DNA of 22,122 bases from a bacterium (GTDB taxonomy: Bacteria > UBP14 > UBA6098 > 4484-93). Where the stretch lies: the NCBI GenBank assembly GCA_021158465.1, contig JAGGUN010000050.1:1-22122 (forward strand), read 5' to 3'. The notes below the pieces were generated by a model. It was given only the letters and a program-made list of their open reading frames with translations. It made no database searches and was not told the origin of the DNA. A program made the translations under genes and the position numbers. This document shows, one piece after another, positions 8,856 to 22,115 of this stretch (position 1 is its first letter; each line of letters begins with the position of its first letter).

Positions 8856-8878
8856 GATGCTACTTCATAAGAAGCATC
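8856..8878. repeat. Inverted repeat enclosing a stop codon
   Basis: GATGCT (8856-8861) and AGCATC (8873-8878) pair, with a further CTT/AAG inside, forming a hairpin over the last codons and the TAG stop of the secreted-protein gene. It lies directly ahead of the terminator hairpin and may help stabilise the 3' end of the message. Confidence 0.4.
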
Positions 8879-10812
8879 TTGCGGGAGACAGAACCGCCAG
8901 TATCACTACTTATCTTGCAGAAATACAGACCGGATGGACAGCGATTTCCGCTGTTATCTGTGCCGTCCCAGGTGACCGTATAGCTACCTGTCCTCTTGAA
9001 TCCAGTTGCCAGCGTCTTAACCCTTTTACCAAGGATGTCATAAACAGCAAGCTCAATCTCGGATGGGCTGTTCACATCGAATCTGATCTCTGTCGCCGGA
9101 TTGAACGGGTTCGGGACATTCGGATAGAGTGTGAAGGAGGTCGGTTTCGCGGTTTCCTCCTCCTCGATACCTTCTATAACCGTCCTCGTGGAGACGACAT
9201 GGCAGATAACCGGGTTCAGTGTAGGCTCTCCAACATCAAGGATAGTTACCCCCGCATCCTTGTCGAGGATATAGAAGATATAGAGTGAATCGTTGGTTGC
9301 ATATTTTGCTGCCGATACATCGAGCTCGGATAGACATTCACCGGGCAGGCATCCAGGAGAATGAGAATCCGTGAGGTTCAGCGGCTCAGACCAGGTTGCA
9401 CCGTTATCTGTCGAGTATGCCACATATACCTCGTTGTTTGGGATACCTCCTGCCTCCCAGCCATCGCCAGAGTAGTCCTCATAGAGTGTATCCTCGAAAG
9501 CACCATACTGATACCAAACACAATACAGGGTTCCATCATCGCCGAGTGTCAGGTTTGGCTTGTGGAAAAGCCCTGCATCCCTCATTCCCCCCTCGTCTCT
9601 TATCCCTGGTGTGAAGTACCAACCAGGGGGAGTGACCTGAGTAACACCTGTTTCCTCAGACCAGTGATAGATATGGTTATACAGATAGTATGAGAACCCT
9701 GCTGTGTCTGATGTATCGAGTGCCTCGGCAGCCCAGGTAATAGTTGTATAGACAATATGGAGGTTGTCATCGTTATCGAATATAGCGGCTGGGTCAGTCC
9801 AGGGTCTCGGAACAACGACAACGGTATCGATGCCGCCCAGTGTATCCTCAAAGAATATGGTATCCGTTTCCTCGAGGGTGTATCTCTCATACCCGGTTGC
9901 ATTTACCCTTTCTCCCCAGGTCTCGCCACCATCTGTCGATATGTGATAGTAGACATTGAAATACTCGGGCCAGTGATGCCCGTAATCCGGCTCGCCGTGG
10001 GTTGTATAGACGATAGCTATCTTGTTGGAAACATGGGAGCAGGCTATAGCTCTATTTACGCCGTAGACGAAATACGGCACATTCACGGATTCGGGCGGTT
10101 CGGAGGTTACACCCATATCGGCATAGTGGCAGCGGTAGTAGTAGAGCGCTCCACTACCGGCAAAAGCCTGACTTAACATATGGATAGTATCATCGATGCC
10201 GACATCGACAAACGGCCAGATAGCCTCCATATCGACGATTTCGCCGCCGCCGGAATCGCCCATTGCTGCCTCCATCTCTGTGGCAACGAAGACGCCCCTT
10301 GTTCCGATATCTGGACCAATGTCGGCTGCCAAGACCGAATGTGTTGCGCCGGATGGCGTGGTCTGGTGGTATCCGATGAACGGAATTCCGGCTGAGTTCA
10401 CAGCGATTGTTGTGTAGCCTGCTCTCGGAGAAGAATCCACACGCATACCTGTTCCAGGCCACTCCCAGACCCCCTCAGGGGAACGGTAGTTGTAATAGAC
10501 ATGACGGGATGTTGAAGCCTCATCCTCGCCGTTCATCCAGGAGATATGCACTCCACCGTTCAGATCAGTGGCTATGTTCGTTCCGTTGCCGTTGTGCTGC
10601 ATGTCATAATATGTTGTTCCGATGGTATCGATATGCCCGACAAGCTCCTTCCTCCCTTCGCTGGCGGCTCTTGGATACCAGTTGCCAAGCACCTTCCCAG
10701 ATGGATAGATAGGCGTTATCTTCCCGGGAAGATCGCTTACAGCATCCTCAAGAGCGAATGCAGTTGCCACGAGAAGAAACAACATACCAACGACAAGAAT
10801 GCCTTTCCTCAT
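8860..10812 (-). CDS. Secreted BNR/Asp-box repeat protein with type A C-terminal sorting domain
   Basis: A 650-residue exported protein of unknown function. The start ATG at 10812 is chosen because AAGGAGG sits just upstream and the protein then opens with a clean signal peptide, MRKGILVVGMLFLLVATAFA. The body contains beta-propeller-like repeats with two clear Asp-boxes, STDGGETW (292-299) and STDNGATW (467-474), as in sialidases and many surface-exposed propellers; the sialidase catalytic set is not evident, so enzymatic activity is not claimed. A Glu-rich linker leads to the C-terminal domain (about 560-650) with LYPNVPNPFNPATEI, YDILGKRV and a final SRKMLLMK, the FlgD-like/type A sorting fold of FCB-group secreted proteins. 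Divergent from the other secreted protein; own promoter and terminator are visible. Confidence 0.85.
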   Translation of the reverse strand: MRKGILVVGMLFLLVATAFALEDAVSDLPGKITPIYPSGKVLGNWYPRAASEGRKELVGHIDTIGTTYYDMQHNGNGTNIATDLNGGVHISWMNGEDEASTSRHVYYNYRSPEGVWEWPGTGMRVDSSPRAGYTTIAVNSAGIPFIGYHQTTPSGATHSVLAADIGPDIGTRGVFVATEMEAAMGDSGGGEIVDMEAIWPFVDVGIDDTIHMLSQAFAGSGALYYYRCHYADMGVTSEPPESVNVPYFVYGVNRAIACSHVSNKIAIVYTTHGEPDYGHHWPEYFNVYYHISTDGGETWGERVNATGYERYTLEETDTIFFEDTLGGIDTVVVVPRPWTDPAAIFDNDDNLHIVYTTITWAAEALDTSDTAGFSYYLYNHIYHWSEETGVTQVTPPGWYFTPGIRDEGGMRDAGLFHKPNLTLGDDGTLYCVWYQYGAFEDTLYEDYSGDGWEAGGIPNNEVYVAYSTDNGATWSEPLNLTDSHSPGCLPGECLSELDVSAAKYATNDSLYIFYILDKDAGVTILDVGEPTLNPVICHVVSTRTVIEGIEEEETAKPTSFTLYPNVPNPFNPATEIRFDVNSPSEIELAVYDILGKRVKTLATGFKRTGSYTVTWDGTDNSGNRCPSGLYFCKISSDTGGSVSRKMLLMK

Positions 10813-10865
10813 CTGTTCCTCCTTACTTTTTGGATTCAATTGCTCATTACCCTGATATTATCTGA

Positions 10866-10914: not shown

Positions 10915-10943
10915 TTGACTTTTGGGGAATTTCTTCATATTTT
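10915..10943 (+). promoter_or_regulatory. Predicted promoter of the GGPD-domain secreted-protein gene
   Basis: TTGACT (10915-10920), a 17-base spacer and TATTTT (10938-10943) precede the ATG at 10967. The two -35 boxes of this divergent pair are 21 bases apart, exactly as in the XRE-lpd region, and the 9-mer CTATGTTGA leads into the -35 box in both. A perfect TATAAT at 10943-10948 is too far (22 bases) from this -35 box to be its partner but could contribute. Confidence 0.45.
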
Positions 10944-10966
10944 ATAATCAAACAAAGGAGGGTATG

Positions 10967-13846
10967 ATGAAACAGATTTTGGTTTTCTCACTACTTCTCG
11001 TTGTTTCGGTGCCTCTTCTCGCCCGGACAGGCGGTCCGGATGATTATGGTTATATGTTCACCGACGAGGTAGAGTTTTCCTGGATAGACGAGGAGGGTGC
11101 GGTTGCTATCGGGCTTTCTGGAGATGATGACTTTCTCCAGATTCCGCTCCCGTTCTCGTTTGGCTTCTATGGTGAAAGGTACGACAGCATCTTCTGCGGA
11201 ACAAACGGACTTCTCTCATTCTTCGAGGAGGAGGCAGATGCATACTGGAACGAGCCTATTCCTGCAACTTCCACTCCCAATGGGATAATCGCACCTTTCT
11301 GGGATGACTGCAATGTAAGGGATGAATCGGAGGTACTTGTTAAGACGGTTGATTCGGTATTTGTCATAATATACAAGAATGTCTTCTGTCCCTTCTCCTC
11401 GATGACGAACCCTTTGACCTTTGAGGTGCTATTGATAAACCATCCGGAAGGTGATGGTGATATTGTTTTTCAGTATCTTGATGCAGAGGTAGACGATGTA
11501 ACCCATACCCACGGTGGGGGTGCTACTGTCGGGATTGAGAACGAGGATGGAACAGTTGGATTGCAGTATTCTTATGACGAGGCGGTCGTGGACAGCGGAC
11601 TTGCCATCAGGTTCTTCTTCTCTGGAGGAATAAATAATGTCTCGGCTATGGAGATACTTTCTCCTGCAGGTGTTGTTATTGGAGGAGAGGAGATTACACC
11701 GAAGGCTGTTTTCAGGAACTGTTCGGATAGTTCTGTCGACTTTACTGCATTCTTCAGGATACAGGATACAACGGGAGCTCTTGTTTATATAGACTCTTTT
11801 GATGTCTCATCGCTTGGAGCGGGGGAAAGGGATACTGTTGAGTTTGCTCCCTGGATGCCTGAGATGGGAGATTTTATCGCTACTGCCTGGCACAACTTCG
11901 GGGGAGATGAGCTACCGGCTGATGATACGACAACTGCTGAATTCAGTGTCTATGAACATATCTCGTCCGGTGGACCCGACGATTTTGGCTACACCTGGCG
12001 AGATTCCTACCACCCCGGTGGACCGACCCCATTGCCTATCGATATAGAGGGCGCAACGAGGATAGATATTTCCGGGGATGATGTGACAGCAGAAATTCCT
12101 CTCCCGTTTGAGTTCCCGTTCTATGGTAGTGAGTATTCCTCTGTCTGGGTCTCATCCAATGGGTTTTTGTCGTTTGAGTCGCTGACAAGGTCATATATGC
12201 TCAACGACAGTATCCCGTGCGCCGATGACCCGAATGCAATCCTTGCGTTATACTGGGATGACTCGGATATCGATACATACTCTGACCCTGAGGCAGGGAT
12301 TTATGTCAAGCGACCCGCGGATGATGAGTTCCATATCATATTCTGGCATATATTCTTACCTTACTCCTCCGCAACGGATAATGTTACATACGAGGCGATA
12401 CTTTATGAATCGGGCAGGATTATCTTCAATTATGCCCAAACGGAGACACCAACATACCCCGAGCGCTCTATGGGACGCTCCGCTACCGTGGGGATAGAAT
12501 CCCCCGATGGAATAACAGGACTCCTCTACGAATACAACGGTGAGCCCCCTGCCAATCTTATATACCCTGATTTTGCGATTGAGTTCTCCTCAGAACCCGT
12601 TGTGGATACGATACCGCCTGCTATCTCACATACACCGCCTGCTGTTTTGTATAGCACAGAGGAGAATTTTATTGTTCAAGCTACCATAACCGACATATCG
12701 GGTGTGATTGCCGATACGCTTTTCTTCAGTGTCACGGGGCTTTTCACCCCTGTTTCACACGATAGTGTGGTCGGTTCGAACTACTACTACACCCTGCCGG
12801 TTCCGCCTGCGGGGATGAGCATCTGCTACAGGTTCTTGGCAGTCGATGGTGCAGAGGGTCATAATGTCGGCTATCTCCCAGGTGGGGATTCTTCATTCTG
12901 TATCACTGTTGTAGACCCGCACTTTGGTGGTCCGGATGAGGATGGATTCTACTTCGCCGATTCCGATGCTCCGGATTCGATCGAGTATAAGCCAGTGTTC
13001 GATTGGGTTGAACTCGACCCTGCACTCGGTGGGGAGGGCGAGGTTCTACCGGTGAGAGATGATTGTCTCTCCGATATCATAACGCTCCCGCTTCCGTCCG
13101 TGTTCTATGGTGTGGATGCAACAGCCCTTGTCATCTCCTCGAACGGGTTTGTCTCTTTCGATACGACACTTACTTTTTCCTACGCGTATAACAGACCGCT
13201 CCCATCTGAGGAGGCACCATCCCCTATTATTGCACCGCTGTGGCTTGACCTCGTTCCACCGGAAGATAGCACAGGTCTCTTCTTCTGGGTGGATGAATCA
13301 GGAGGGAGGCTCATTATCGAATGGAAAGATTTCCATGAGTATGCCGATACTGTCCCTATGACATTCGAGGCAGCAGTCTATTTTGGTCTCGAATACCCGT
13401 ATATCAAGTTCCAGTATCTTGAACTGCCGGAGGAGCTGGGAGCAACTGTTGGCATCCAGAATTGGGATGGGACAAGTGGAGTGCAATATTTCTATGATGG
13501 AGTGCCTGGTTGTCTCTTGCACGATTCGCTCGCTGTTATCTTCTCGACGAACCCGACATATGTTCCAGAGGTAAAAAGCGTTCCGCAGAAACTTGCCCTC
13601 CATCTGCCTTATCCGAACCCGTTCAACTCGGTGGTGCAGATAAGGTTTGATGTCCCAGAGGGAGAGAGTGCCTCCGTTGAACTTTACAACATCCTTGGAG
13701 AGAGGGTCGAGGTGCCTGTTAGGGAGGCTGGACCTGGAAGATATACCGTATCGTATAGGGCTGATAATCTGCCCTCCGGTGTATATATGATTCTGCTCCG
13801 TGGAAGAGATACCTCTCTTTCCAGGAAGCTCTTGTATCTAAAGTAG
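10967..13846 (+). CDS. Large secreted protein with three GGPD-type beta domains and type A sorting domain
   Basis: A 959-residue exported protein. Two ATGs are adjacent (10964, 10967); I prefer 10967 for its spacing to AAAGGAGG. The signal peptide is MKQILVFSLLLVVSVPLLA. Three related units start near residues 22, 334 and 653 with GGPDDYGY, GGPDDFGY and GGPDEDGF. Each continues with a (I/L)PLPF-type strand, a FYG loop, a (S/T)NGxLSF turn, APxWxD-like residues and an ATVGI(E/Q) segment, reminiscent of nidogen-like or jelly-roll surface domains. Between them lie two Ig/CARDB-like insertions (about 225-330 and 545-650). The last 90 residues carry LPYPNPFNS, LYNILGERVE and a terminal SRKLLYLK, the C-terminal sorting domain. 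Function unknown; adhesion or an extracellular structural role is only a guess. lpxK begins at once after its stop. Confidence 0.85.
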   Translation: MKQILVFSLLLVVSVPLLARTGGPDDYGYMFTDEVEFSWIDEEGAVAIGLSGDDDFLQIPLPFSFGFYGERYDSIFCGTNGLLSFFEEEADAYWNEPIPATSTPNGIIAPFWDDCNVRDESEVLVKTVDSVFVIIYKNVFCPFSSMTNPLTFEVLLINHPEGDGDIVFQYLDAEVDDVTHTHGGGATVGIENEDGTVGLQYSYDEAVVDSGLAIRFFFSGGINNVSAMEILSPAGVVIGGEEITPKAVFRNCSDSSVDFTAFFRIQDTTGALVYIDSFDVSSLGAGERDTVEFAPWMPEMGDFIATAWHNFGGDELPADDTTTAEFSVYEHISSGGPDDFGYTWRDSYHPGGPTPLPIDIEGATRIDISGDDVTAEIPLPFEFPFYGSEYSSVWVSSNGFLSFESLTRSYMLNDSIPCADDPNAILALYWDDSDIDTYSDPEAGIYVKRPADDEFHIIFWHIFLPYSSATDNVTYEAILYESGRIIFNYAQTETPTYPERSMGRSATVGIESPDGITGLLYEYNGEPPANLIYPDFAIEFSSEPVVDTIPPAISHTPPAVLYSTEENFIVQATITDISGVIADTLFFSVTGLFTPVSHDSVVGSNYYYTLPVPPAGMSICYRFLAVDGAEGHNVGYLPGGDSSFCITVVDPHFGGPDEDGFYFADSDAPDSIEYKPVFDWVELDPALGGEGEVLPVRDDCLSDIITLPLPSVFYGVDATALVISSNGFVSFDTTLTFSYAYNRPLPSEEAPSPIIAPLWLDLVPPEDSTGLFFWVDESGGRLIIEWKDFHEYADTVPMTFEAAVYFGLEYPYIKFQYLELPEELGATVGIQNWDGTSGVQYFYDGVPGCLLHDSLAVIFSTNPTYVPEVKSVPQKLALHLPYPNPFNSVVQIRFDVPEGESASVELYNILGERVEVPVREAGPGRYTVSYRADNLPSGVYMILLRGRDTSLSRKLLYLK

Positions 13847-15758: not shown

Positions 15759-17359
15759 TGGAAAAGCGGTATGACATTCTCGTTATAGGTAGCGGAGTTG
15801 CAGGGCTATTCTTTGCACTCAAGCTTGCGGATCGCTTCAAGATTCTCGTTGTCACAAAGGGGCAGGCAACAGTCTCCAATACATACTATGCTCAGGGTGG
15901 TATAGCTGCCCCTATCGGTGAGGACGATTCGGTGGAGCTGCACATTCAGGATACCCTCGATGCAGGTAGAGGGTTATCGAAGGAGCCCGTCGTTCGAAGG
16001 ATTATCTCATACGCCGCGCAGGGAATAAAGGAACTTATTGATATGGGTGTTCAGTTTACTGAAGCAGACTCAAACCTGGAGCTTGGCAAGGAAGGTGGGC
16101 ATTCGAGGAAACGGATAGTCCATGTTGGGGATTTCACGGGCAAAGTCATCGAGGAGAAGATGGTTGAGCTTGCCCGCAACCACCCCAATATAGATATATT
16201 CGAGAATTCATTCGCCGTTGACCTCATTACCCAGCATCATCTGCGTATCCCCGAGTCGAGGAAGAGGAAGGAGCCTATCCGCTGTTTCGGTGCCTATGTG
16301 CTTGACACCAAAGCGGGAGAGATAAACACTGTCCTTGCCCAGTACACGCTGCTTGCCTCAGGAGGTTGTGGTAGGGTATATTTCCACACGACAAACCCGC
16401 CTGTTGCCACAGGGGATGGCGTCGCAATGGCTTTTCGCGCGGGTGCAAGGGTGGCTAATATGGAGTTCATCCAGTTCCATCCGACCAAGCTCTACAACCC
16501 TTCTGACCCTGTTCCGTTTCTCATATCGGAGACTGTTAGGGGAGAAGGAGGAGTTTTGCGCAGAAAGGATGGCTCCACTTTTATGGAGATGTATAACCCG
16601 AAGCGTGAGCTTGCGCCGAGGGACATCGTTGCCAGAGCGATAGACCATGAGCTGAAATCAACGGGGGATCCTTGTGTCTATCTGGATGTAACGCATCTTG
16701 ACAAGGATTTTGTCAGAAAACGGTTTCCAGCTATCTACGAGCATTGCCTGTCCATCGGGATAGATATAACAAAGGACTGGATACCTGTTGTTCCAGCGGC
16801 GCACTATATGTGTGGCGGTGTTATGGTCGATGAGAACGGGAGAACAGATATTGAGAACCTCTACGCATCTGGTGAGGTTGCATATACAGGGTTGCACGGG
16901 GCGAACAGGCTTGCTTCAAATTCCCTTCTCGAGGCACTCGCACTCTCTCACTTCGCTGCAGAGGATATAAAGCAGAGGTTCGGTTCTGTCGAGGGTTTCC
17001 CTCCTGTTCCGTCGTGGGACACATCGGGGGTGTTCGATTCGCACGAATGGGTGGTTATCTCGCATGACAGGCTGGAGCTGGAGCATATTATGTGGGACTA
17101 TGTCGGAATAGTCCGCTCGGATAAACGGCTGAATATGGCCAGGGAGCGGGTAGAGAAGATATCGAGCGAGGTGCGTGATTTCTATGCCAAAAACCCTGTC
17201 AGACAGGAACTCGCTGAGCTGAGGAACCTCGTCTCCGTTGCAGAGCTTATTATCCTCTCGGCACTGGCACGAAAAGAGTCGAGGGGACTGCACTACAATG
17301 TCAACTACCCCTACCAAAGCGAGAAGTTCAAGAAAGAGACAATACTGAAAGCATTTTGA
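15758..17359 (+). CDS. nadB: L-aspartate oxidase
   Basis: FAD enzyme that oxidises L-aspartate to iminoaspartate, handing the unstable product to NadA. The 533-residue protein has the N-terminal GSGVAG dinucleotide fold (11-16), TYYAQGGIAAP, the fumarate-reductase-like segments NPPVATGDGVAMAFRAGA and MEFIQFHPT, active-site SETVRGEGGVLR and LAPRDIVARAID, and the FAD motif SGEVAYTGLHGANRLASNSL. A C-terminal helical domain (about 425-533) follows, as in NadB rather than in succinate dehydrogenase flavoproteins, and no iron-sulfur partner subunit is nearby. It starts at the last base of the nadA stop codon. The third enzyme of the pathway, nadC, is not in the window. Confidence 0.97.
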   Translation: MEKRYDILVIGSGVAGLFFALKLADRFKILVVTKGQATVSNTYYAQGGIAAPIGEDDSVELHIQDTLDAGRGLSKEPVVRRIISYAAQGIKELIDMGVQFTEADSNLELGKEGGHSRKRIVHVGDFTGKVIEEKMVELARNHPNIDIFENSFAVDLITQHHLRIPESRKRKEPIRCFGAYVLDTKAGEINTVLAQYTLLASGGCGRVYFHTTNPPVATGDGVAMAFRAGARVANMEFIQFHPTKLYNPSDPVPFLISETVRGEGGVLRRKDGSTFMEMYNPKRELAPRDIVARAIDHELKSTGDPCVYLDVTHLDKDFVRKRFPAIYEHCLSIGIDITKDWIPVVPAAHYMCGGVMVDENGRTDIENLYASGEVAYTGLHGANRLASNSLLEALALSHFAAEDIKQRFGSVEGFPPVPSWDTSGVFDSHEWVVISHDRLELEHIMWDYVGIVRSDKRLNMARERVEKISSEVRDFYAKNPVRQELAELRNLVSVAELIILSALARKESRGLHYNVNYPYQSEKFKKETILKAF

Positions 17360-17373
17360 GGAAGACTGATACC

Positions 17374-18912
17374 GTGTCCTGGGAAAGGGTCGTCATTTTT
17401 GATTTTGGCTCACAATATACCCAGCTTATCGCCCGCAGGATAAGAGAAAATAAGGTGTTTGCCGAAATAGTGCCGTACAATACACCGATAGAGGCGATAG
17501 ACAGAAAGCATCTTATTGGGATAATACTTTCCGGTGGTCCTGCGACCGTTTTGAGAGAGGATAGTCCAAAGATCGGGAAAGAGGTTTTTGCTCTCGGTCT
17601 CCCTGTGCTCGGAATATGCTATGGGATGCAGCTTATGGCATATCTGCTTGGTGGAAGGCTCACCTCGTCCATAACAAGGGAATATGGCAGGGCTCGATTT
17701 CGCATCAAGAGAAGCTCTTCTCTCTTTGAGGGGGTGCCAGATAGTTCCATCGTGTGGATGAGTCACGGCGACAGTGTCGAGACCGTTCCCGATGGCTTTG
17801 TCGTCACAGGTGAAACAGATACTCTCCCTGTCGCTTCGTTTGAGGAACCAGAAAGGTTGCTCTTTGGGCTTCAGTTCCATCCGGAGGTCGCCCATACCGA
17901 GTTCGGAAGCAGGATCATCGAGAACTTCCTTGTTCGTATCTGCCACGCCAAGCAGGATTATACCCCCGAATCGTTTGTCGAGCGCACGGTCGATAGGATA
18001 AGAGAAGAGGTAGGGGACAGGAAGCTGATTATGGCTGTTTCTGGTGGAGTTGATTCCACCGTGGCTGCTGTTCTTATCCATAAGGCAATCGGCGAGCGAC
18101 TTGTTCCTCTCTTCGTTGACAACGGACTCCTCCGTGAGGGTGAGGCTACCGATGTCTTGGATACATTCCGTAGCACACTGTCTATTCCGGTGAAGTTTAT
18201 CGATGCGTCCGATAGGTTTCTTACCAATCTGTCCGGTATCTGTGACCCTGAGGAGAAGCGGAAGGTTATCGGGCGCACATTCATCGAGGTTTTTGAGGAG
18301 GTGGCAAGCTCTATACCTGGCGTTTGCTGTCTCGGGCAGGGGACACTGTATCCCGACCTGATAGAATCTGTCTCATTCCGTGGACCGTCGGCAACGATCA
18401 AGAGCCACCACAATGTCGGTGGACTGCCGGAGCGTATGAAGCTTAAGCTCGTCGAGCCTCTGAGAGAGCTTTTTAAGGATGAGGTGCGCGCGGTGGGGAG
18501 AAGCCTCGGAATACCGAGAGCTGTTCTTATGCGTCATCCGTTCCCGGGTCCTGGGTTAGCCGTGAGGATAATCGGAGAGGTCACCAAAGATAGACTTGAC
18601 ATTCTGAGGAAGGTTGATAATATATTTATCCAAGCCCTGAAGGATGATGGGCTATATGACGAGGTTTGGCAGGCTTTTGCTGTTCTCTTGCCCGTTTGCT
18701 CTGTCGGAGTGATGGGGGATAAGAGGAGCTATGGAAACTCTGTGGTTCTGCGGGCTGTTGTGAGTCAGGACGGAATGACAGCGGACTGGGCGCATCTCCC
18801 GTACGACTTCTTGGCGATGGTCTCTGGGAAGATAATCAACAGCGTGAAGGAGGTGAATAGGGTAGTATACGATATCAGTTCTAAACCACCAAGCACGATA
18901 GAGTGGGAATAA
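17374..18912 (+). CDS. guaA: GMP synthase (glutamine-hydrolysing)
   Basis: Converts XMP to GMP using ATP and glutamine. Residues about 5-190 form the class I glutamine amidotransferase, with nucleophile Cys82 in GICYGMQ and the His169/Glu171 pair in QFHPEVAHTE. The ATP-pyrophosphatase domain follows, with the PP-loop SGGVDS at 223-228. The C-terminal dimerisation domain ends in PPSTIEWE, the family's usual terminus. I chose GTG at 17374, giving 512 residues, because GAGGAAG lies 9 bases upstream; TTG at 17356, overlapping the nadB stop, is the other option. The gap to nadB is 14 bases, and the next gene begins 11 bases after its stop. Confidence 0.97.
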   Translation: MSWERVVIFDFGSQYTQLIARRIRENKVFAEIVPYNTPIEAIDRKHLIGIILSGGPATVLREDSPKIGKEVFALGLPVLGICYGMQLMAYLLGGRLTSSITREYGRARFRIKRSSSLFEGVPDSSIVWMSHGDSVETVPDGFVVTGETDTLPVASFEEPERLLFGLQFHPEVAHTEFGSRIIENFLVRICHAKQDYTPESFVERTVDRIREEVGDRKLIMAVSGGVDSTVAAVLIHKAIGERLVPLFVDNGLLREGEATDVLDTFRSTLSIPVKFIDASDRFLTNLSGICDPEEKRKVIGRTFIEVFEEVASSIPGVCCLGQGTLYPDLIESVSFRGPSATIKSHHNVGGLPERMKLKLVEPLRELFKDEVRAVGRSLGIPRAVLMRHPFPGPGLAVRIIGEVTKDRLDILRKVDNIFIQALKDDGLYDEVWQAFAVLLPVCSVGVMGDKRSYGNSVVLRAVVSQDGMTADWAHLPYDFLAMVSGKIINSVKEVNRVVYDISSKPPSTIEWE

Positions 18913-18923
18913 GGAGGCAGGTT

Positions 18924-20786
18924 ATGATACCCGACAGTGCAAACTCCGATGAGATGTTATCCGATTCCGCCAGATACTCAAATTTTATGTATCAGCTCAT
19001 CGAGCAGGATATCCCGTTTAAGGTATGGGAGAGCATCATTGTTTATGTCCTGAAAGACCGTTCGCCTATCAACATCGAGGATCTCTACGATGAGATAACA
19101 GACCGTTTTAAGTTGAAGCAGGAATTTTTCCGACTGCAGTTCGATAGGGCGCTCGCAAGCCTCGAGAAGTCGGGCGTTGTTGAGTTCTCTGGTGCGAAGG
19201 CGCTCAAGGAGGTCTCGCTTGTCGAGACAGAGGTGGGTGTCCACAAAGGGATAGATGTGGTAGGAAGGCTCTCGCATCTCACCGAAAGGATCATTAGGAT
19301 AGTTGGGAAATATGTTCCGGACATAGCGGATAAGGAGGAGCTGCGGGATGCTGTTATGCTTATGTGGTTCAATCTGTTCAGAAACTACGGAGCGATCATA
19401 GCCAGATATTTCAGCAAGGACGGTTTGACGGATGAAGAGCAGAACAGGTTCGGTAGCCTGAGCGACCTTCTCCGTAGCTGTGTGCAAATAGATGACCGTA
19501 GGGTCTCCTCCCATATTCGGGAGATTGCATCGGATGTAGCCGATTCCTTGAATGAACAGGATGTTGAGCTTATATTTGAACTGCTCAAAGGCTACACATT
19601 GTATACCTTATTCGGCTACTCTGATGTGGCTGATAATGTTGTGAAAGAGCGTGTTGAAGGGGGGAGACTCCTCCTCGACACAAATATCCTTTTCCCGCTT
19701 GTGCTTGAATATCATCGGAAGCATCCGTTTGTAAAGGGGCTTTTGGATGTCTGTTCACGCTATAATATAAAGGTCTTTGTGCTTGAGGAAACGGTGAACG
19801 AGCTTTCGAGGGCTATGCGCCGTCGGATGCGCTATCGCAATATCTCTCCCGATGTGGATTTCAAGATTATATACGAGCGCCGTGTCGACGATGATATGAT
19901 AGACTCCTACTACAACTATGTTCAGCAGGAGGAATCGCCGTTTTCCTGGGAGGAGTATCTCCGCTGGTATATGGAGAACGCCGAGAGGTTTCTGTCCGAC
20001 TACGGTGTCGAGATTATAAAAGAGATGCCAGAGGATTTTTGTGTCAAGTTCACTTGTGAGGTTGCATCCGCGACGAAGAGGCGGGGGAGGCTTGTTAGAG
20101 GTGTGTGGATCGAGCGCCCCAAGGCAAAGGATGAGGTGGACCACGACGCAAAGCTGCTATCATTGATCGACTACTGGCGGAGAAAGGAACGCGGAAACTC
20201 CGGTAAGTACTGGCTTATCACCTGGGACAAGTATCTTTTAAAGGGCGACGATATCATATTTGACCGATGGTTCCATTTTCGTGGTCGCAGGATGGCTATC
20301 CGTCCGGAGGACTGGATTGCCTACTTCTCTATCCCGCAGGCTCCGACAGCGGAAGGGAAAAAGGCGTTCCTCGATTTCCTCTCATCCGAACTGTTCGAGG
20401 TGACAAGGCAGTCTATCCCTGCTACATTTATAAATGCTCTATCTCGCCCGACTGTTCTCAGATTGTCTAAGGAAGAGCCAGAAGCCGTGATAGCATTTAC
20501 CGAAAACTACCTGACAGACCATATCATACGAAAGGAGATATTCGAGCTATCCACAGAGAATGGTATGGAGGAAAAGATAGAGCAGATACTCACCCGCTTC
20601 ATCGATAAGGTGAAGAAACAGAAGATATTTGAGGAACGCTCCCCCTCCGGGGATAGAAATCTCCTGCACTTCGCAGGCAAAACATATCCGATCCCCAGAG
20701 GTTCTAATGCGAAGCTTGTAGGACTCGGTGTAGGGATAGGGGTTGCAATAGGGATAGCGATAGGACTAATCTTGACCCTAATATAG
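18924..20786 (+). CDS. Tail-anchored PIN-domain protein of unknown function (putative RNase)
   Basis: I do not recognise a named family for this 620-residue protein. Residues about 30-100 look like a winged-helix or similar small helical domain (PINIEDLYDEI, then LDRALASLEKSGVVEF-like pattern). Residues 110-240 are helical. From 246 the chain shows PIN nuclease signatures: LLLDTN at 249-254 (Asp252), EETVNEL at 288-294 (Glu293), VDHDAKLL at 405-412 (Asp406/Asp408) and LITWDKYLL at 431-439 (Asp435), the four acidic positions expected around a PIN metal site, with a roughly 110-residue insertion between the second and third. A charged segment (about 480-590) leads to a single Gly-rich membrane helix at 598-620 ending in GLILTLI. 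The topology is probably a cytoplasmic body with a C-terminal anchor. ATG at 18924 has AAGGAGG; the longer GTG at 18903 would overlap guaA. No antitoxin-like partner is adjacent. Confidence 0.75.
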   Translation: MIPDSANSDEMLSDSARYSNFMYQLIEQDIPFKVWESIIVYVLKDRSPINIEDLYDEITDRFKLKQEFFRLQFDRALASLEKSGVVEFSGAKALKEVSLVETEVGVHKGIDVVGRLSHLTERIIRIVGKYVPDIADKEELRDAVMLMWFNLFRNYGAIIARYFSKDGLTDEEQNRFGSLSDLLRSCVQIDDRRVSSHIREIASDVADSLNEQDVELIFELLKGYTLYTLFGYSDVADNVVKERVEGGRLLLDTNILFPLVLEYHRKHPFVKGLLDVCSRYNIKVFVLEETVNELSRAMRRRMRYRNISPDVDFKIIYERRVDDDMIDSYYNYVQQEESPFSWEEYLRWYMENAERFLSDYGVEIIKEMPEDFCVKFTCEVASATKRRGRLVRGVWIERPKAKDEVDHDAKLLSLIDYWRRKERGNSGKYWLITWDKYLLKGDDIIFDRWFHFRGRRMAIRPEDWIAYFSIPQAPTAEGKKAFLDFLSSELFEVTRQSIPATFINALSRPTVLRLSKEEPEAVIAFTENYLTDHIIRKEIFELSTENGMEEKIEQILTRFIDKVKKQKIFEERSPSGDRNLLHFAGKTYPIPRGSNAKLVGLGVGIGVAIGIAIGLILTLI

Positions 20787-22115
20787 ATGAAAAAAAATCA
20801 TCTCTTTCCTTTTTTGCCCTTTGGATTAAGTCCGTTCGTTGGTTGTTCATTCAATCACCGATTGTTAGCTCTCTTTCTCTTTTTATTGAGCCTCTCTTGT
20901 GCTGCAACTCGTCCGCCGAAGAAGGAGGAAAGGCATCCACCAAGCACCGAGCGGATAAGCTTTATATGGAGCGAGGACTTCCCTGATTCCGTCTCTATTA
21001 CACTCCCGCTTTCCTCTCCGCTTACAGGGGATATTTGCCTCTTTGACTCCAGTGTCGAGCAACGGATAAAGTTCTCCTACTTCGAGCAAAAGAACCCCAA
21101 TATCCTTATCCTCCAGGACTGTTCAGCGAGCGGCAGGGAGTCTCTTCCAAAGAGCAACAGGATAATAGAAGCAATTGCAAGTGAGCTCTCTTTCAGGAAG
21201 ATCGGACTTATACGCTTTGCGAAGGATATAGTCGTTATCTCGCCCCTGACATCGAATAGGGAAGAGTTCTTAGCCAAACTCCCAAAGGGGAAGTATCCTT
21301 CTCCCGATGGGACAGAGATAAAGCAAGCAGTTGGGTATGCAATCGGTTTGCTCGAGAAGGAGAGGTCTGGCGAGAGGATAATCCTGCTTTTCTCCGATGG
21401 AAACCAGAGACCAGACCAAGATTTCACACCAGAGTTATCCCGTGCAAACGAGACGGGGGTAAGGCTCTTCGTGATAGGGGTCGGTCCGACACAAACAGCT
21501 ATTCTGTTTCCGCTTGCCACCTTGTCTGATGGCTTTTTCGTGGAGACAAGGTCGCTTGTTCCTGAGCTTGCCGCAAGGATTATCAAGAACGGTATCCGAC
21601 GGTTCGTATATATCCAATACACACCGACCAATCAGGATAGGGGGCTGCATACGGTTCTGATCGAGCAGAGGGATTCAACGGACCGGGTTGTTAGGAAGTA
21701 TGTCGGCTCATACATACCGCCTGAAGTAGAACAGGTTGCAGGGGCGAAGCCGTTTTCCTTCCAGCCGTCGCGCTTTGTTATCCCGTTTGTTGAGCGGGAT
21801 AACTACGAGATACTTCGTATTGCTATCCCTATCCTCGATAGCATAGTTGCACTTATCAACTCGTCCCCAGAGAGCATTCTGGTCGAATGCGAGTTCGATG
21901 GTTACACCTGTGACCTCGGAACTGATGAGCATAATCTCTGGTTGTCAGAGATGCGGGCGAACTCTGTCAAGCGGTATATAGAAGAGCATACATCGGTAGG
22001 GATTGTATCTGTTGTTCATTCCTGGGGAGAGAAGTTCCCGCTTGTTGAGAATTCAGATGAGGAGAGCCGTAGAAAGAACCGCCGTGTCGAGGTAAAACTG
22101 TCCGCATTGAGGTGA
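20787..22115 (+). CDS. Lipoprotein with von Willebrand A domain fused to an OmpA-like domain
   Basis: A 442-residue envelope protein of unknown role. The start ATG directly follows the stop of the PIN gene (TAGATG), with no separate ribosome binding site, so the two are translationally coupled. A hydrophobic run RLLALFLFLLSLS ends at Cys38, a probable lipidation site; FVGC at 17-20 is a second possible lipobox. The vWA domain (about 105-275) keeps the MIDAS metal site: DCSAS (Asp111, Ser113, Ser115), Thr176 and Asp204 in FSDG. The C-terminal part (about 325-440) resembles OmpA/MotB peptidoglycan-binding domains: CEFDGYTCDLGTD, NLWLSEMRANSVKRYI and KNRRVEVKL. The usual GHTD is replaced by GYTCD, while the conserved Arg390 of the RA motif remains. 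It probably sits in the outer membrane facing the periplasm and touching peptidoglycan. Seven bases of window follow its stop. Confidence 0.85.
   Translation: MKKNHLFPFLPFGLSPFVGCSFNHRLLALFLFLLSLSCAATRPPKKEERHPPSTERISFIWSEDFPDSVSITLPLSSPLTGDICLFDSSVEQRIKFSYFEQKNPNILILQDCSASGRESLPKSNRIIEAIASELSFRKIGLIRFAKDIVVISPLTSNREEFLAKLPKGKYPSPDGTEIKQAVGYAIGLLEKERSGERIILLFSDGNQRPDQDFTPELSRANETGVRLFVIGVGPTQTAILFPLATLSDGFFVETRSLVPELAARIIKNGIRRFVYIQYTPTNQDRGLHTVLIEQRDSTDRVVRKYVGSYIPPEVEQVAGAKPFSFQPSRFVIPFVERDNYEILRIAIPILDSIVALINSSPESILVECEFDGYTCDLGTDEHNLWLSEMRANSVKRYIEEHTSVGIVSVVHSWGEKFPLVENSDEESRRKNRRVEVKLSALR

Follow-up and report, generated by a model that had tools for sequence, protein, structure and literature searches.

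The gene at positions 18924 to 20786 of the window, by which is meant the whole stretch of 22,122 nucleotides that was analysed, encodes a protein of 620 amino acids (P0001) that is best read as a membrane-tethered, metal-dependent PIN endoribonuclease whose family is defence-effector-like and whose gene has settled in an operon of housekeeping genes. This reading is given a probability of about one in two, and the function it names is one that we infer. It draws support at the sequence level from the PIN core with its catalytic set, the membrane helix, the contexts in which relatives are found, the insertion into the operon and the purifying selection acting on the gene.

The gene and the history of its operon

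The PIN gene lies between two genes of the same direction:

17356-18912, + strand: guaA, directly upstream of the PIN gene (NCBIfam GMP synthase equivalog, 771.8 bits)
18924-20786, + strand: gene for the 620-aa PIN protein with a C-terminal membrane anchor (open reading frame, AGGAGG, 86% identical ortholog L004, dN/dS 0.146)
20787-22115, + strand: lipoprotein gene with VWA and OmpA domains (Pfam VWA 2.2e-14, OmpA 7.3e-9)

The coding frame (18924-20783 on the + strand, with the stop codon reaching 20786) starts with the ATG at 18924, which is preceded by AGGAGG at 18912-18917 with a spacer of 6 nt, and the stop codon of guaA overlaps this Shine-Dalgarno sequence. At the other end the ATG of the lipoprotein gene abuts the PIN stop codon with zero gap in both species of the genus; the guaA/PIN junction is closely similar in the second species. 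The ortholog from that species, L004, belongs to a candidate division Zixibacteria metagenome genome and sits on the same contig of 14,645 bases that was met as G001 in the genome search. Its gene order (nidogen-type protein, lpxK, nadA, nadB, guaA, PIN, lipoprotein) is as in the window, where nadA-nadB-guaA-PIN-lipoprotein is read. Elsewhere in the window (10922-13846 and 8860-10839) two large secreted proteins are encoded that carry type IX-like sorting domains at the C-terminus (Por_Secre_tail E 1.1e-8 and 1.2e-5); one of them has three nidogen-like stretches.

Between the window and the second species dN/dS amounts to 0.146 for the PIN gene, 0.143 for guaA, 0.118 for nadB and 0.200 for the lipoprotein gene. 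The most constrained segments of the PIN gene are residues 481-590, with the lowest ratio (0.086), and the two PIN halves (0.094-0.096). Judged by these ratios, the PIN gene is under purifying selection and is not a chance frame. The open reading frame of the earlier note can be taken as real, given its ATG and AGGAGG, an 86% identical ortholog in the same gene order and a dN/dS near that of guaA.

The position between guaA and a lipoprotein gene had been called unexpected, and comparison within the class bears this out: in two same-class genomes (G002 and G005) nadB is followed directly by the lipoprotein gene, with neither guaA nor the PIN gene between them. In G011 nadB is followed by guaA, and the order nadA-nadB-guaA-PIN-lipoprotein was seen only in the genus of the window. 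Of the 16 other same-class genomes searched, 14 yielded no PIN homolog; the exceptions are G001, of the same genus, and G005, in which the homolog lies in a defence island. On the simplest reading, an operon of nadB and the lipoprotein gene would have gained guaA and the PIN gene within the lineage of the window genus. There is no sign of a recent event, because the GC content of the PIN gene (0.484) is close to that of its neighbours (0.489-0.512) and GC3 is likewise close; a recent transfer of the gene gains no support from composition. Most genomes of the class carry a long homolog of the lipoprotein (20787-22115) with 26-32% identity, and two of them have it next to nadB.

The fixed place of the gene in a metabolic operon makes a domesticated housekeeping RNase a serious rival for the window copy: an enzyme bound to the membrane and engaged in normal RNA turnover or processing by a logic like that of RNase Y or membrane-bound RNase E, with the tie to defence lost. 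Fixation in the genus, a dN/dS equal to that of guaA, GC and GC3 near those of the neighbours, the strong ribosome site after guaA and, in both species, the gapless join to the following gene are all consistent with such an enzyme. It also counts against the defence reading that the window gene evolves like housekeeping genes and unlike a typical defence gene. However, with no homolog found in the 14 genomes mentioned above, P0001 does not count among the core RNA-decay enzymes of its class; moreover, the G005 copy lies in a defence island, and the patchy distribution together with the contexts of the relatives resembles that of a conflict gene. Domestication is on the whole regarded as somewhat unlikely.

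The kept zero-gap junction could also mean that the PIN protein is functionally paired with the downstream VWA/OmpA lipoprotein, for example in an envelope-stress sensor whose envelope partner controls the nuclease. Nevertheless, the lipoprotein is kept across the whole class independently of the PIN gene, its gene directly follows nadB in two genomes, and no such lipoprotein gene was seen beside the PIN relatives at the L003, L007 and L025 loci, so that the pairing is considered quite improbable.

Architecture of the protein

The order of parts in the family would be a winged-helix-like region, a helical linker, a PIN core with a helical insertion, a helical or coiled-coil region and a membrane anchor. 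In P0001 the parts are placed as follows:

19020-19223, + strand: probable winged-helix domain, residues 33-100 (weak HTH_45 and AbiEi matches of relatives; L80 and G84 invariant)
19251-19658, + strand: helical linker domain, residues 110-245 (alignment A7, low-confidence helices)
19659-19823, + strand: PIN first half, residues 246-300, with D252, N254 and E293 (PIN_3 E 0.006, hhalign 93.9%, invariance)
19824-20108, + strand: insertion between acidic motifs two and three, residues 301-395 (present in relatives with variable length; PIN_12 span)
20109-20327, + strand: PIN second half, residues 396-468, with K400, H407, D408, R419, T433 and D435 (invariant in six sequences; TxD match E 0.033)
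20361-20708, + strand: C-terminal helical domain, residues 480-595 (alignment, low-confidence helices; coiled coil here in relatives)
20715-20783, + strand: single membrane helix with glycine zipper, residues 598-620 (hydropathy up to 2.5 over 19 residues)

The catalytic set was judged from an alignment of six family members (A7), whose identity to P0001 is 16-18% except for the one close ortholog. Only 14 positions besides the start methionine are invariant. Acidic residues account for four of them, namely D252, E293, D408 and D435, and no other acid is kept in all six sequences; the chance that four invariant acids would match the four named ones among 102 is about 2e-7. The four PIN-type acidic motifs listed in the earlier note are thereby upheld for these residues, and the alternative D406 falls away, being not conserved (Ser in the ortholog). 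N254 of DxN and T433 of TxD are also invariant in the six sequences, which completes the PIN signatures, and the residues follow the D-E-D-D order in DxN and TxD contexts that marks the PIN superfamily. K400, H407 and R419 are further invariant residues of the family; L80 and G84 also belong to the invariant positions of A7.

A Pfam search with the single sequence gave weak PIN_3 matches (E 0.014 for P0001, E 0.006 on the excised core), and the stronger evidence came from the relatives. When the core profile was aligned with one built on PIN domains of other genomes, which had been collected from Pfam PIN hits and motif-filtered, hhalign returned a probability of 93.9% and E 2.6e-8 in this one comparison; the N-terminal half, run as a control against the same profile, reached 0.02%. 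This comparison places the PIN similarity in the core and none in the N-terminal half. The second half of the PIN core alone matched PIN domains weakly (E 0.033) with the TxD strand in register. Pfam PIN_12 (PF16289) has a cut-off of 32 bits, and the PIN pieces of the family score at most 22.4: the L003 piece is matched over nearly the whole model (E 1.8e-4, 22.4 bits), the L007 piece with 16.5 bits (E 0.011) and the window piece with 14.2 bits. A sub-threshold Pfam PIN match was obtained for L025 (E 0.0048). In the Pfam and NCBIfam HMMER searches of P0001 no PIN model reached its curated cut-off, and nothing meaningful was matched by phmmer and a profile search against PDB sequences. The AlphaFold models, made with two and three sequences, are of low confidence (full length pLDDT 31; core pLDDT 42 and pTM 0.39). 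Because they are poor, the structural results stand at noise level: Foldseek against the PDB and viral models gave no match at E <= 0.001, and the PIN entries (HARP, VapC4) among the low-Z rows have Z of 2.2-2.7, noise for a model of this quality.

With high confidence, P0001 can be predicted to have a PIN core and a membrane tail, and nuclease activity is likely. An inactive PIN scaffold, which had been offered as an alternative, would agree with PIN scores under the curated cut-offs, but the acid quartet and the DxN and TxD residues are precisely what stays conserved at 16-18% identity. Since the profile comparison ties the core to PIN domains, the scaffold is held to be highly improbable.

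The large insertion reported earlier (about residues 301-395) is real, since it is found in the relatives as well and falls within the PIN_12 model (sub-threshold matches of L003 and L007); because nearly the whole PIN_12 model aligns to L003, a large segment between the second and the third acid is not unique to P0001. The N-terminal winged helix that had been seen in the sequence is weakly suggested through relatives (HTH_45 E 0.024, AbiEi E 0.0014). Residues 191-328 (window 19494-19907) also gave weak partial PADLOC matches, to PRTase_III-A over residues 191-261 (E 1.2e-4) and to PDC-M11A over residues 248-328 (E 0.0028).

The segment 593-620 is the only one in P0001 with a mean hydropathy above 1.4 over 19 residues, and it contains GxxxGxxxGxxxG spacing (G602, G606, G610, G614) that is kept in the ortholog, in agreement with the glycine-rich membrane helix described earlier at the extreme C-terminus. 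By hydropathy and ortholog conservation the protein is predicted to be tail-anchored, with one terminal helix and the soluble part N-terminal to it. The C-terminal ends of L003 and L007 are hydrophobic helices by the same measure, those of L025 and L040 are hydrophobic by eye, and coiled-coil-like sequence precedes the helices in the relatives. Because these four end hydrophobic, C-terminal membrane attachment is regarded as a family trait, of which the predicted single helix of P0001 is a simpler version.

Relatives and their neighbourhoods

Relatives of P0001 are rare (about 1% of the genomes searched). Successive genome searches led to L003 (genome G005), L007 (G121), L025 (G038, where the first hit came from the PIN_12 profile) and L040 (G929), the only four distant full-length relatives found. 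L003 is preceded by genes for a type IIG restriction enzyme-methyltransferase (PADLOC, 1047 bits) and for an AriA/Old-type (OLD/PARIS-type) AAA15 ATPase, with a BrxH/DrmD-like helicase (BREX/DISARM-type) further downstream. L007 follows hsdR, hsdS and hsdM, apparently in one type I restriction operon. L025 sits where a Mu-like prophage carries its cargo, with the lysis side on one flank and regulatory genes on the other; the MuA transposase was recognised by Pfam, the terminase and portal by eye. An identical copy of L025 is present on a viral contig; searches of viral contigs with the family yielded the prophage copy only, and neither plasmids nor phages gave a tblastn match to family members. 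On the short contig of L040 a clear defence neighbour is absent. Conflict-type settings thus apply to three of the four distant relatives (L003, L007, L025), a suggestive count with no statistics behind it, and the window copy itself lies outside any defence island. The contexts are suggestive of anti-phage and mobile-element conflict, and the family is considered defence-type with moderate confidence.

The PIN-like superfamily includes DNA nucleases, and the relatives adjoin restriction-modification genes, as might be expected if the family were a DNA-directed PIN nuclease (FEN-like or restriction-type) that attacks invading DNA and not RNA. The best matches are, however, VapC-type and PIN_12 PIN domains, and VapC-type PIN domains are RNases where tested; a DNA substrate is judged improbable.

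A more distant member of 744 aa, L041 (G633, 727-2958), scored E 2.5e-6 with the family vs 0.65 for the best of 200 shuffles. The acids of its PIN core are intact, and it has an extra N-terminal domain that looks like an Mrr-type restriction nuclease by eye, without a Pfam hit. L043 (G790, 67-2793) was considered and rejected as a family member, its whole-chain score being no better than shuffled controls (one domain E 0.018) and its PIN-like motifs looking degenerate. It is a protein of 908 aa with an N-terminal, ThsA-like SIR2 domain (SIR2_2 E 2.7e-21) and possibly a degenerate PIN domain in the C-terminal half, encoded directly downstream of an integrase-like gene. Beside the type I restriction operon of G121 lies a cluster (L008, 5226-8244) with QueC-like, PfkB kinase/nucleoside-transferase-like fusion and HhH glycosylase-like genes by eye, perhaps a base-modification or nucleotide-based defence.

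Proposed action and known systems

It is proposed that the protein most likely cuts RNA endonucleolytically while bound to the inner membrane, with the PIN part presumably on the cytoplasmic side. Because an antitoxin gene is absent, PIN activity would be restrained within its own chain, to be released once a disturbance is sensed by the N-terminal region or the membrane anchor. Subunits could assemble through the glycine-zipper helix. In its mode of action the family would resemble effectors of abortive infection or exclusion; the window copy would be a stably inherited member, co-expressed with the nadA-nadB-guaA-lipoprotein operon, and may have a role in defence. The role in RNA decay or stress response suggested in the earlier note is possible, but the relatives point elsewhere; the interpretation given there was reasonable though incomplete.

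A bolder and rather unlikely proposal is that of a single-gene defence family in which self-inhibited, membrane-tethered PIN proteins sense infection at the inner membrane and occur in restriction operons, defence islands and prophages, one lineage having fixed the effector in the nadA-nadB-guaA operon. If this were true, the effector level would follow NAD and GTP synthesis, the large, anchored, antitoxin-free PIN family would represent a novel kind of effector architecture whose catalytic residues lend themselves to direct testing, and the window copy would show how an effector gene gets fixed in a core operon.

Most of what is known of bacterial PIN nucleases concerns small toxins paired with antitoxins. 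The VapC toxins of VapBC pairs (PIN, PF01850; PIN_3, PF13470) share with P0001 the catalytic motif order D..E..D..D, but they are proteins of about 130 aa with an adjacent antitoxin, whereas P0001 is anchored and has no antitoxin gene alongside. The VapBC reading was rejected on the length of 620 aa and on the neighbours, which in both species are guaA and the VWA/OmpA lipoprotein gene. YacL and PilT-N PIN-TRAM proteins are likewise membrane-bound, and they carry N-terminal membrane helices and a TRAM domain; this reading was also set aside, the only hydrophobic segment of P0001 being 593-620 and Pfam giving no TRAM hit in it. The earlier view that P0001 is neither of VapC-pair nor of PilT/YacL type can be maintained: it lacks an antitoxin partner, a TRAM domain and any membrane segment at the N-terminus. 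HARP, the minimal protein-only RNase P, is also a PIN-superfamily nuclease with a weak structural match (Z 2.6-2.7, within noise), but it has about 190-200 aa and no membrane anchor. Pfam PIN_12 resembles the family in the long region between the second and third acidic motifs; its model covers the PIN part alone, the winged-helix-like region and the anchor lie outside it, and the scores of the P0001 family stay below 32 bits.

DS-3 is a one-protein PIN defence system reported with DefensePredictor (PMC13092281). Like P0001, it is a single protein without antitoxin whose PIN domain is interrupted by a long segment, and auto-inhibition until infection was proposed for it (PMC13092281). Compared by description and not by sequence, the two differ in that the PIN domain of DS-3 is split between the chain termini, whereas that of P0001 is central and followed by a C-terminal membrane helix. 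DS-3 is thus an earlier example of PIN-based defence that does without an antitoxin and for which auto-inhibition is proposed.
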